A stretch of 42,272 bases of DNA from Candidatus Woesebacteria bacterium GW2011_GWB1_38_8b (GTDB lineage Bacteria; Patescibacteriota; Microgenomatia; UBA8517), in NCBI GenBank assembly GCA_000993115.1, contig LBVN01000011.1, positions 1-42,272 on the forward strand. The letters run 5' to 3'. This document shows positions 19,576-23,158 of the stretch, in pieces. Within the stretch, counting starts at the first letter, position 1; every line of letters starts with the position of its first letter. The notes beneath the pieces were generated by a model. The model saw only the letters and a program-made list of their open reading frames with translations. It did not search any database and was not told the DNA's origin. Position numbers and translations under genes: made by a program.

Positions 19576-20820
19576 TTAGCTGATTTTCTCAGGCAAGTCA
19601 CTGAGTTTTTCTTCGGTTTGCTTGCCCGTATTTAAATTTTTAAGCACAACTTTGTTTTTATTAACTTCTTCCGGTCCGACTACAACCAGCCAGGGAATTT
19701 GTTTTTTGTCAGCGTACTTGAGCTGCTTTTCCAGTTTTACCTCATATGATGGAAATATTTCGGTTTCAATTCCGTTTCCGCGTAAGTTTGCCGCGACCAT
19801 TGCCGCTTCATCTGCAAGATCTTTATTGAAAACACTAACCAGAACTTTTGTATAAGTTTTTTCTTTAGGGAACAGCCCAAACATATCCAGGGCTTCAATT
19901 GTTCTGTCAAAGCCAAGTGCGAACCCAACTGCCGGGATATCAACACTGCAAAGCGTATCTATAAGATTGTCATATCTGCCCCCACCCAGGACTGAGCCCG
20001 CAGGATAATCATCGATTTTAACCTCAAAAATCGTGCTGGTGTAATAATCGAGGCCCCGCGCCAGTCTTGGCTCAAAAAACAACCTTTCTTTGTTAACACC
20101 CAAGTTTTGGGACAAGTCCAAAACCTCTTGCAACTTTTGGGTCGGTTTGACCGTTTTTAGGTGCTCGAAAAGGTGCTTTACTGTGTTTGTGTCAATTCCT
20201 TTTGCGATTAATTCCGAGGCAACCTCCTCTTCACTTTTACGGTCCAATTTATCGATTGATGCAATCACGCTAAATTGAAGTTCTGGCGGGATTTTAACAA
20301 ATCCGATTACATCGAACAAAATATTGCGGTCGTTTATGTAAATTTTAAAATCGCGGAAACCCAAATTTTGAAATAATGCATTGGCAAGAGCTACTATTTC
20401 AGCATCGGCTAGAGGAGAAGTTGTGCCGTAGATATCAGCGTCACATTGAAAAAACTCGCGGAAACGCCCGCGCTGTGGTTTTTCTGCACGCCAAACAGGT
20501 TGGATTTGATAACGCTTCCAAGGCATCGGGAGCTGTTGTTTATAGCTTGCGAGAATTCTGGCAGTCGGAACAGTTTGATCGTAACGAAGAGCGACACGGC
20601 GCCCGCCTTCATCCTCAAACCTATAAATTAATTTGTCGGCCTCATCACCGTATTTTCCCAAAAGTAGGCTCTCGTATTCGAGTGCGGGAGTCTCAAGCGG
20701 TTCAAATCCATAAAGCTCGAAAGTGCTTTTGATGTTATCAATTGCAAAACTTCTTTTTTTTGCATCCTCCGGCAAAAAATCCCGAAAACCTTTAAGTGGT
20801 TGTAATAAATTATTGTCCAT
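19576..20820 (-). CDS. hisS: Histidine-tRNA ligase
   Basis: HisRS charges tRNA-His. The 414-residue length is normal. The class II core shows motif 1 near the start, motif 2 RYQIQPVWRAEKPQRGRFRE, the histidine-specific RGLDYYTSTIFEV and GSVLGGGRYDNL, and motif 3 VGFALGFDRTIEAL. A C-terminal anticodon-binding domain follows (TKVLVSVFNKDLADEA onward). It is the last gene of the operon T-box, tRNA-His, two paralogs, hisS, and starts 12 bases after the previous stop without a Shine-Dalgarno. So both the synthetase and its tRNA are controlled by the same histidine-sensing leader. Confidence 0.96.
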   Translation of the reverse strand: MDNNLLQPLKGFRDFLPEDAKKRSFAIDNIKSTFELYGFEPLETPALEYESLLLGKYGDEADKLIYRFEDEGGRRVALRYDQTVPTARILASYKQQLPMPWKRYQIQPVWRAEKPQRGRFREFFQCDADIYGTTSPLADAEIVALANALFQNLGFRDFKIYINDRNILFDVIGFVKIPPELQFSVIASIDKLDRKSEEEVASELIAKGIDTNTVKHLFEHLKTVKPTQKLQEVLDLSQNLGVNKERLFFEPRLARGLDYYTSTIFEVKIDDYPAGSVLGGGRYDNLIDTLCSVDIPAVGFALGFDRTIEALDMFGLFPKEKTYTKVLVSVFNKDLADEAAMVAANLRGNGIETEIFPSYEVKLEKQLKYADKKQIPWLVVVGPEEVNKNKVVLKNLNTGKQTEEKLSDLPEKIS

Positions 20821-20832
20821 AGAATTATTATT

Positions 20833-21699
20833 TCATTGATATCCTGTATTATCAACGCCAAATGGGTAGATAACTGGTAGTCGGTCGGAAAATGTTTTTG
20901 TAATTAATGGCTGGTACATTTTGGTTCTTAGAAGTGATGGTTTTTCATTTTGTAAAAGTATTGAATTTGGGAGAAACAAATAAATAAAAAAACCTTGTAT
21001 CGTGTACTCGGTAAATTTTCTTTTTATCCAGACTTTTAGTACTTTATCGGAAGGCGGTTTTATGCATTTAAAATATTTATCTTTTCCGAATGCCTCTCTG
21101 AGGCGATTTAATTCAATTTTAAAGTCGTTTTTATTAAAATAATTATTAATAATGGGAAGACTTAGGTTAAAAAGTTGACAAAATTCAATACCTTTTTCTG
21201 ACAATATTTGATTTTCAATTTCGTACCAGCTGACTAGATTATAATTTTGAAGATTTTGCGATTTTAGATACGAGTCTAAATTTGTTTTATAAGCTCGCCA
21301 TCTTTGTGCAAATTTACTCCATAACTTTGAGTAGGATAGTTTTTTGTATATTCCGAAATTTTCTGAATATATATAAAAAGGGTCAGTGTTCCCAATAATA
21401 ACGGTTAATTCAGTAGGATAGGCTTTGTTTAATTCGTTGAGTAATAGAATTAGAGTTGGAACATCTGGTTCTAGATTATTACCTTTGGGATTTAAGTTGA
21501 CATATCTCCACGGAGATGTCTGGCTGAACAAGTATTTATCATTAATTGTTGAACAAGTAAAACAGACAAGACGTATGGGTTGATTATTCATTAAGAAAGA
21601 ATTTATGCGACGTTTGATAATTGGAATATCAACATTATTGTCGAATTTGTCGAACACCTTCACAATTTTAGTAATTTTATTTTGTAATAATTGATTCAT
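20833..21699 (-). CDS. Unknown protein B of the His operon, paralog of the upstream gene; possible tRNA-dependent cyclodipeptide synthase-like protein
   Basis: The 288-residue protein lies between its paralog (3 bases upstream) and hisS (12 bases downstream). I do not recognise the family with certainty. Shared with the paralog are: FTCSTIN at 47-53, a strand ending IIGNTD (101-106), VSWYEI (156-161), EYTIQG (231-236), LPNSILLQNEKPSLLRT (243-259) and LPVIYPF (274-280). Positions S50-x-x-N53, followed by YLFS, a 'W-EI' segment, a late tyrosine, and a final strand with a proline recall cyclodipeptide synthases, which have SxxN near the start, a YxxxE motif and a final strand motif. The Glu of YxxxE is replaced by Gly here. 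No membrane segment is present. The context implies use of, or an effect on, histidyl-tRNA. Confidence 0.5.
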   Translation of the reverse strand: MNQLLQNKITKIVKVFDKFDNNVDIPIIKRRINSFLMNNQPIRLVCFTCSTINDKYLFSQTSPWRYVNLNPKGNNLEPDVPTLILLLNELNKAYPTELTVIIGNTDPFYIYSENFGIYKKLSYSKLWSKFAQRWRAYKTNLDSYLKSQNLQNYNLVSWYEIENQILSEKGIEFCQLFNLSLPIINNYFNKNDFKIELNRLREAFGKDKYFKCIKPPSDKVLKVWIKRKFTEYTIQGFFIYLFLPNSILLQNEKPSLLRTKMYQPLITKTFSDRLPVIYPFGVDNTGYQ

Positions 21700-21702
21700 G
21701 AT

Positions 21703-22803
21703 CTAATAAATATTTCTTCTTTCATTAAACGGATAAATGTATGGAATTGTTTCTTGAGCCTCGGCTTTCAAACCCGCGTTAATCATTAATGTTCGCAGTA
21801 ATGCAGGTGATTCATTTTGAATCCCAATTGCGTTCGGAAATAATTTTTTAAGTGTGTTGCCTTGCCGTGTATAAGTTTGCATTTTCAGTCTAGCCATTTG
21901 TATAAGTTGCTGGGGGTTTGGTTCGGGTAATCCGTCGTAATATCCACCTGGCTTAAAAAAATCTTTCATTCTTCTGGACTCGTCGACAATAAAAGACAGG
22001 CTTGGTAATTTATCTAGAACTATCAAGCCAGAATTTGCAATTTCCGACCAGCTAAGAATTTGCAAATTTGTGCCAGGGTAAGTTTTTGCTATTAAACTTT
22101 TAAAACTTTGGAGATACTCCGACCTCCTTTCGGTAAGGCGTTGAACATCAACTCCGAAGTTTCCTAAAACAGGAAATATATAACTTTCTTCATCAAGCTC
22201 GCCAACAACGATGTTCAATCTTGATGAAATATCTAAAGCACCGAGAATTCTTGATAGCTGGTTTATAGGTTTCGGGTCGACAGTTGCAGTATTAACTTTT
22301 GCCTCGGTATTAATAAATGAATCGGGTTCATCTGTATTTAGCCAAAATGCTTTTATTTCAGGGCAAGAAAACATCAGTAGTTCCATTTGTCCACTTTCTC
22401 TTAGCGTATTTGAAATTGAAGTAAATATGATTGTTTTATCGGGGTTTGGGGTTGTAGGTGAAAATTTGTCGATTGATAATATTGCACCTGCACCTAATAG
22501 TGCTGCTTGGTTAGCCTCACAGTATTCGATTCCAATTTCACTTGCAACCTTGGTAGCTAATTCTGTTTTTGCGACTTCTAAATCAGTAACAATTGGCTTT
22601 AATGAATTAATAAGTCGACGTGCTCGATTTACCTCTAAAGCCCTAGGTTTAACTTCTAAATTGTCCCAGCTTATTTTCCAGTTTTCTACTAAGTTTTCTG
22701 CCTGGTTTAGAGCTAAAGGTGGTTTAATACCACTCAAACCCTTCTGATTTAGCCGCCTTTTAGCTTCAGATTCTAAATATATTATTTGTTCAAAGTCTTT
22801 CAT
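21703..22803 (-). CDS. Unknown protein A of the His operon, paralog of the downstream gene
   Basis: I chose ATG 22803 (366 residues), because the frame upstream of it runs through tRNA-His and is not real protein. Residues 1-120 are a helical extension absent from the shorter paralog. The shared core is 124-360: FTSISN at 127-132, IVVGELD (198-204), LSWSEI (250-255), TYTRQG (310-315), FPNAIGIQNESPALLRTLM (322-340) and IPYIYPF (353-359). The start codon is only 3 bases after the tRNA discriminator base, so the mRNA would be leaderless once the tRNA is cut out. The same cyclodipeptide-synthase-like hints apply as for protein B. It is otherwise unassigned. Confidence 0.5.
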   Translation of the reverse strand: MKDFEQIIYLESEAKRRLNQKGLSGIKPPLALNQAENLVENWKISWDNLEVKPRALEVNRARRLINSLKPIVTDLEVAKTELATKVASEIGIEYCEANQAALLGAGAILSIDKFSPTTPNPDKTIIFTSISNTLRESGQMELLMFSCPEIKAFWLNTDEPDSFINTEAKVNTATVDPKPINQLSRILGALDISSRLNIVVGELDEESYIFPVLGNFGVDVQRLTERRSEYLQSFKSLIAKTYPGTNLQILSWSEIANSGLIVLDKLPSLSFIVDESRRMKDFFKPGGYYDGLPEPNPQQLIQMARLKMQTYTRQGNTLKKLFPNAIGIQNESPALLRTLMINAGLKAEAQETIPYIYPFNERRNIY

Positions 22804-22806
22804 ATG

Positions 22807-22878
22807 GGTGGGTGAGGGGAGTCGGACCCCCGTTTCCAGCTCCACAGGCTGGCGTGATACCGTTTCACTACACCCACC
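22807..22878 (-). tRNA. tRNA-His (GTG)
   Basis: On the minus strand the cloverleaf is complete. The acceptor GTGGGTG pairs with CACCCAC, preceded by the extra G-1 and followed by discriminator C73, the pair diagnostic for tRNA-His. The anticodon arm CCAGC-CTGTGGA-GCTGG has anticodon GTG. The T arm contains GGTCCGACTCC, with a C in place of the second T of the usual TTC, and the D arm is short. CCA is not fully encoded (the bases after C73 are CAT). It is the first gene of the operon controlled by the T-box upstream. Confidence 0.95.
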
Positions 22879-22931
22879 AAAAACCTCCCGTTCATTTCCC
22901 GCCAACGATGACGAAAAAGGAACGAGAGGTT
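22879..22931 (-). terminator. Second terminator-like hairpin directly before tRNA-His
   Basis: On the minus strand AACCTCTCGTTC (22931-22920) pairs with GAACGGGAGGTT (22893-22882) with one wobble and a 26-base loop, followed by five T abutting G-1 of the tRNA. It looks like a terminator, yet the tRNA gene needs read-through. It may be a second control point or a processing signal. Confidence 0.55.
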
Positions 22932-22939
22932 AATCCATT

Positions 22940-23124
22940 AAAAAAGGACCTCCCGCGGTCCCATCCTTATTTTCTATAAGACTTATTGATTTGTCTTAAA
23001 GACTCTTGGTCCAACTCCGCTAGGCGACATTGGTTGTTGTATTTTTACGCTTCAACTTGCGGCTGGTATTTGGCCAGCTCCTTTTGGATCGTGACTCCAA
23101 TGCAAACGGATTTATTCAAATGTA
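22940..23124 (-). promoter_or_regulatory. T-box riboswitch, histidine-specific, with intrinsic terminator
   Basis: On the minus strand the element AGGATGGGACCGCG (22967-22954) matches the T-box consensus AGGGUGGNACCGCG at 12 of the 13 fixed bases. Its last part forms the terminator GGACC-GCGGGA-GGTCC (22961-22946) followed by six T. Upstream, the hairpin TTGGA-GTCACGA-TCCAA (23100-23084) presents the triplet CAC (23093-23091), a His codon pairing with the GUG anticodon. The UGGG of the T-box pairs with CCCA, the C73-CCA end found only on tRNA-His. Further hairpins (GCTGG/CCAGC, CCAA/TTGG, TAAGAC/GTCTTA) lie between. Uncharged tRNA-His should stabilise the antiterminator and switch on tRNA-His, both paralogs and hisS. 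The specifier in a hairpin loop resembles the ultrashort stem I class. Confidence 0.82.
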
Positions 23125-23130
23125 TTTAGA

Positions 23131-23158
23131 ATTATATCAAGAAAAAGTTAGGTGTCAA
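23131..23158 (-). promoter_or_regulatory. Consensus sigma70 promoter of the T-box/His operon
   Basis: TTGACA (23158-23153), a 16-base spacer and TATAAT (23136-23131), with TG extension, on the minus strand. It is the best promoter in the window. The -35 overlaps the TGA stop of the preceding gene. The predicted transcript start is about 23124. Confidence 0.85.

Follow-up and report, generated by a model that had tools for sequence, protein, structure and literature searches.

Isonitrile synthases, the tyrosyl- and tryptophanyl-tRNA synthetases (TyrRS and TrpRS) and the cyclodipeptide synthases (CDPSs) have the class Ic aminoacyl-tRNA synthetase fold in common, and both T-box riboswitches and leader-peptide attenuation induce their genes in response to a shortage of histidine or of charged tRNA-His. 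HisR, with the operator consensus cacTTTAnnnnnnTAAAgtg, likewise raises expression when histidine falls (PMC9413887), and in the CDPS AlbC the nucleophilic serine is S37 (PMC5935735). Here we describe an operon from Candidatus Woesebacteria bacterium GW2011_GWB1_38_8b, a member of the candidate phyla radiation (CPR, Patescibacteria), in which a putative histidine T-box precedes a tRNA-His gene, the genes for two proteins, A and B, and hisS, which encodes histidine–tRNA ligase (HisRS). It lies in contig LBVN01000011.1, positions 1–42,272 of which were analysed and are referred to below as the window. We propose, with a probability of roughly 0.45, that A and B represent a previously undescribed CPR enzyme family of the superfamily of class Ic synthetases, CDPSs and isonitrile synthases, which handles histidine so as to restore its supply.

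Histidine-responsive control of the A/B loci

Relatives of A and B were gathered by protein search, alignment search and reading of hisS neighbourhoods, and were found in 12 further genomes of the phylum, giving 13 loci with the window. In 12 of the 13, histidine-responsive control lies directly upstream, and it is of three unrelated kinds: a T-box (four loci: the window, L008, L031 and L034), a gene for a YerC/HisR repressor (six loci: L003 and L035–L039) and a leader peptide with His codons followed by a terminator (two loci: L032 and L092). No leader was found at L033 (G791), where a single A-like gene has hisS, HutH (a histidine ammonia-lyase) and an M20 peptidase within about 5 kb.

The arrangement behind these controls varies. 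In the window and L008 (G150) the T-box is followed by tRNA-His, A, B and hisS; in L008 two small higBA-like genes have been inserted ahead of hisS. L031 (G764) has T-box, A, B and hisS, and L034 (G708) has T-box, a single A-like gene and hisS. The leader peptide MTTSSLNKISFQISHHTHGEYVLRH and a terminator precede A and B in L032 (G387), and in L092 (G017, of the same family as the window) the leader peptide MNIFYSVQNHHSSRV and a terminator are followed by tRNA-His, a divergent pair and hisS. The YerC/YecD regulator gene is followed by A and/or B in L003, L037, L038 and L039, and by tRNA-His and a single A-like gene in L035 and L036, two closely related loci that count as nearly one case. In total, hisS lies downstream in five loci (the window, L008, L031, L034 and L092), and tRNA-His adjoins A/B in five and is not adjacent in the other eight.

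The YerC/YecD product is a TrpR-family regulator that matched TIGR02531 above cutoff in all five loci scanned, that of L035 being assigned by its likeness to L036. Tandem TTTA-N6-TAAA sites such as CACTTTATTTAAGTAAAGTG, which fit the published HisR operator, are present in L037–L039; on inspection L003 and L036 showed other palindromes and L035 no clear operator.

The family is sparse, occurring in 9 of 380 genomes of a phylum sample. The searches overlook divergent copies, G017 having surfaced only through reading of the hisS neighbourhood, and a partial match in G080 (E 3.7e-4) was excluded from all counts. A contig scan with protein A as sole query gave no relative and with protein B gave L003, and the phages, plasmids and viral contigs searched contained no relatives of A or B. 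Phylogenetically, the B proteins fall into a single clade (97/99), the single-copy proteins of L033–L036 cluster with A (80/90) and the L037 protein clusters with the second protein of L039. The minimal unit appears to be the A type. The family would be expressed either as a pair, probably of two subunits, or as one A-like protein alone. Two members are irregular: the second protein of the pair in L038 (6213–6980; G923) is split over two frames, reflecting a pseudogene or an assembly error, and protein A of L003 (4052–5989) is extended at its N-terminus by about 280 aa, for a total of 645 aa.

Predicted fold and conserved residues

Protein A (366 aa, 21703–22803, minus strand) and protein B (288 aa, 20833–21699, minus strand) matched no family in Pfam, NCBIfam, PADLOC or PHROGs, and no PDB entry by sequence or by profile. 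AlphaFold models built from family alignments had a mean pLDDT of 91.7 for B and 91.0 for A. When these were compared with the PDB by Foldseek, the best match was the isonitrile synthase PIsnA (E 1.7e-4 and 2.2e-5 for the two models), with PvcA, TyrRS/TrpRS and CDPSs also matched and probabilities near 1.0; E-values ran from 2.2e-5 to 3.3e-4 for PIsnA/PvcA and from 1.6e-3 for CDPS folds, TMt being mostly 0.43–0.57. In a viral model library the best match was a cyclodileucine synthase (E 6e-3). On these models it is very likely that both proteins have the superfamily fold, B as a single such domain and A with a helical N-domain (residues 1–110) ahead of it.

Sequence profiles gave a different picture. 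PF16715 (CDPSs) found none of the 18 members at a threshold of E<=1 and nothing in the source genome, PF05141 (isonitrile synthases) and synthetase profiles matched no A/B member, and hhalign runs against alignments of CDPSs and of PvcA gave no match, these templates being small and shallow, with only two PvcA sequences. Because all of these profiles fail to match, we regard A/B as a separate family.

Four residues are invariant in all 18 sequences, namely Cys49, Glu196, Tyr232 and Glu252 in B, which are C147, E275, Y311 and E331 in A. In the model Cys49 would close the first strand, at the position of the nucleophilic Ser of CDPSs, the register being taken from secondary structure; no Ser is invariant across the 18 members. 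With respect to the CDPS pair Y178/E182, an invariant Tyr is present but the residue at Tyr+4 is Gly, and the position of Y202 is unsure. The RLSIHPQ segment of isonitrile synthases is replaced by LLQNExP, inspection of the alignment found neither the HIGH nor the KMSKS ATP motif, and the A proteins have no net positive charge.

The histidine T-box and its operons

The leader of the window operon, with its terminators, occupies 22879–23115 (minus strand). Rfam model RF00230 matched it at 22915–23115 with 25.8 bits against a gathering score of 93 (E 9.5e-4), and gave no match in 17 sibling T-box loci either. This T-box being weak for Rfam, it was tested through conservation. The core pattern AAGGATGGGACCGCGG-AGGTCC, run over 374 genomes of the same class, was found in 20, the window included, and a reversed control pattern had no match in the genomes listed. 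A hairpin with the loop GTCACGA, displaying the His codon CAC, is present in 19 of the 20 leaders (in the window TTGGA-GTCACGA-TCCAA, 23084–23100, minus strand); both outer stem pairs show compensatory changes, in 8 and 6 sequences respectively, and stay intact throughout, and the hairpin folds by itself (z -2.3). The core AAGGATGGGACCGCGGGAGGTCC (22946–22968, minus strand) has UGGG as its UGGN bulge, so that the N could pair with the tRNA-His discriminator base, C73. The main intrinsic terminator, with the stem AACCTCTCGTTC/GAACGGGAGGTT and then a T run (22879–22931, minus strand), abuts the tRNA exactly; it is conserved in other leaders and together with the core folds at -41.9 kcal/mol (z -5.9). 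Judged from these sequence features, the leader is a T-box specific for histidine, and its specifier stem is very short. Our literature search found no paper on T-boxes in this bacterial group, although such papers may exist.

The genes that follow the same T-box in relatives comprise hisG with a hisD-like gene behind it, hisS, tRNA-His, M20 and M15 peptidases, CntK-like histidine racemases (matches scoring below family cutoffs) and HutH. A tRNA-His gene lies behind the T-box in 10 of 20 loci, eight of which are without A/B; put differently, among the 18 His T-box loci of the class that lack A/B it is present in 8, where hisG, hisS or racemase-like genes come next. We therefore rejected the idea that tRNA-His is specific to A/B and take it to be a part of the T-box operon generally.

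A HutH-type gene stands directly under a His T-box in L087 (1649–3022) and beside hisS in L033 (3872–5365); such positions are odd for a degrading enzyme, which would be induced at low histidine, and HutH may run in reverse or have some other role. CntK-like proteins are encoded in tRNA-His/hisS or His T-box operons at L081 (491–1312) and L062 (2690–3388), both below cutoff, and, by likeness, at L088 (3–545). At L060 (G043) the leader peptide MTSLSLHHHCQNRE, with three consecutive His codons, and then a terminator lie upstream of tRNA-His (1381–1453) and hisS (1495), so that, from its sequence, this operon seems to use classical attenuation in place of a T-box. Tandem hisS copies, the first one broken, with tRNA-His in between, are found in G037 (L059; contig C1, 14950–17864).

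Organization of the operon in the window

On the minus strand the order is promoter, histidine T-box, tRNA-His, A, B, hisS. The candidate promoter ahead of the leader is of the sigma-70 type (TTGACA-16 bp-TATAAT, 23131–23158) and agrees with the consensus at 12/12 positions by pattern match only. The tRNA-His (GTG anticodon; 22806–22878, with a 62.9-bit match over 22806–22877) has G-1 and C73 encoded and CCA not encoded, and is single-copy in the source assembly (85.6% complete). The hisS gene (19576–20820) is complete, encodes 414 aa and scores 386 bits with TIGR00442, above cutoff. Rfam matches to RAGATH-21 and Spy779816 overlap the tRNA or the terminator and were dismissed as chance.

A preliminary description of this DNA, made without database searches, had proposed the operon with its T-box, and both are borne out, the T-box by the conservation described above and at a position upstream of the 19576–22878 span it gave for the operon. 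The spacings of 3, 3 and 12 bases that it reported stand for A/B (3) and B/hisS (12), while that between tRNA-His and A measures 2. Its view of A and B as paralogues also holds: they align with 27% identity over 274 columns (E 4e-17), by which they are true paralogues at the sequence level. A start codon 1–3 bases past the 3' end of tRNA-His is found for various genes (window 22803–22806; L008 10404–10408; L073; L077), and RNase Z cleavage would therefore yield a nearly leaderless mRNA.

Discussion

We consider it highly probable that A/B are part of a response to histidine limitation. The preliminary description had tied them to histidine, and the connection has proved wider than it claimed, since it extends to the control upstream in 12 of 13 loci and to the predicted fold, which is that of enzymes binding amino acids or aminoacyl-tRNA. 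The constant company of tRNA-His or hisS is seen in part: each accompanies A/B in five of 13 loci, and L003, L032 and L037–L039 have no tRNA-His, hisS or T-box. The histidine link survives because these five have HisR or a His leader peptide instead. By contrast, its suggestion that tRNA-His is supplied for A/B has to be given up, given the T-box operons that carry the tRNA without A/B and the eight A/B loci that lack an adjacent copy.

Since all three kinds of control induce their genes at low histidine or low charged tRNA-His, A/B most likely relieve the shortage. Combined with the fold and the invariant Cys, this leads us to favour a histidine- or histidyl-handling enzyme that restores supply. 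That A/B act directly on histidine or a histidyl group we regard as probable; that their net effect is histidine supply is more tentative, and direction is the weakest step. Our current working hypothesis is that a fall in charged tRNA-His would let uncharged tRNA-His pair both with the loop that shows CAC and with the UGGG bulge, whereupon the terminator would fail to form and tRNA-His, A, B and hisS would be produced together. In this scheme the synthetase-like pocket of A/B would hold histidine or a histidyl group, the invariant Cys would occupy the site of the CDPS nucleophile, and histidine would be freed or transferred from some conjugate, possibly by way of a Cys intermediate, so that supply recovers.

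Several findings weigh against this proposal. There is no sequence-profile link to the CDPS, isonitrile synthase or synthetase families, so that the case for homology is one of fold, and TM-scores are modest, about 0.3–0.6. Moreover, the HutH and racemase genes found in the same T-box slot normally consume L-histidine, so the argument that the regulon serves supply is not airtight.

The preliminary description had A/B consume, modify or protect histidyl-tRNA or tRNA-His. A consuming enzyme that works like a CDPS would load the histidyl group onto the invariant Cys and from there onto another amino acid or a small molecule, to give a histidine-containing product, with the tRNA-His and hisS of the operon replenishing the substrate. 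The CDPS-like fold of both models, the viral-library match and the Cys ending the first strand at the site of the CDPS Ser (PMC5935735) agree with such a reaction, but induction by all three kinds of regulator when histidine is scarce is in the wrong direction for a consumer; the failure of PF16715, a Gly four residues past the conserved Tyr rather than the strictly conserved Glu of CDPSs, and the eight loci without a neighbouring tRNA-His add to the difficulty, and we consider it doubtful. Low-histidine induction is equally awkward for a relative of the isonitrile synthases that would join the amino group of free histidine, or of a near relative, to a sugar phosphate to give a histidine-derived metabolite. 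PIsnA and PvcA are the top Foldseek matches for both models, but PF05141 matches no member and the profile comparison, limited to two PvcA sequences, was null; this chemistry seems distinctly improbable.

A predicted induction that coincides with uncharged tRNA-His, the linkage to the genes for both tRNA-His and HisRS and a class Ic fold would all suit an accessory factor of tRNA-His, a synthetase relative without ATP motifs that proofreads mischarged tRNA-His, shields it or aids HisRS in histidine shortage. Such a role is nonetheless unlikely, as tRNA-His is not adjacent in eight loci and hisS is missing from several, the rarity of the family is odd for quality control, and A proteins have no net positive charge. 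The patchy distribution, the start of A 1–2 bases past tRNA-His in two genomes and the absence of the pair from G115, a genome of the same genus, could also mark a mobile gene pair that inserts behind histidine operons, at the 3' end of the tRNA or at hisS, and has no histidine function. We think this very improbable: an inserted element is disfavoured by the HisR and leader-peptide loci, the three unrelated controls include loci with neither tRNA-His nor hisS near, and no integrase was noted adjoining A/B.

The supply-restoring enzyme that we favour gives a concrete role to a family without any annotation in bacteria that are hard to grow, and the use of three unrelated histidine sensors is strong functional evidence obtained without experiment. 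As the Rfam model scores this leader class far below cutoff, CPR His regulons are probably missed in routine annotation. If A/B do act on histidyl groups, they add a new branch to the few synthetase-like enzymes outside translation. More speculatively, they may constitute, next to CDPSs and isonitrile synthases, a third functional branch of this fold, whose members use a cysteine to form or cleave a histidyl bond, possibly on tRNA-His, when CPR bacteria are starved of histidine, under a T-box controlling the tRNA it senses.

Comparison with known systems

The A/B loci use the same kinds of histidine control, with the published HisR operator consensus, as the HisR, T-box and his-attenuator regulons described previously (PMC9413887), but here the controls drive a putative enzyme pair without known family and in places the tRNA-His gene itself. 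The window leader has the UGGN bulge, ACCGCG core, competing terminator and looped specifier codon of RF00230 T-boxes, and differs in that its specifier hairpin is very short, with a loop of 7 bases, its score lies far under the gathering threshold and it controls the gene of the sensed tRNA. With CDPSs (PF16715; AlbC, Rv2275, YvmC) the models share a Rossmann domain of the class Ic synthetase type, about 240 residues long, a nucleophile-like residue ending the first strand and, tentatively, a conserved Tyr in a long C-terminal helix; A/B depart from them in the lack of a profile match, Cys for Ser, no Glu at Tyr+4, two tandem paralogues and histidine regulation. The isonitrile synthases (PF05141, DIT1_PvcA; PvcA 3e59, PIsnA 9dh4), the best structural matches of the models, arrange their elements in a similar order (strand, helix, strand, helix ... 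long helix, 'FPxAIxL' strand), whereas A/B have no profile match to them, no RLSIHPQ and, in the window, no secondary-metabolite cluster around them. The models likewise share the catalytic-domain fold of TyrRS and TrpRS, from which A/B differ in being shorter and in having neither HIGH nor KMSKS motif and no anticodon-binding domain.

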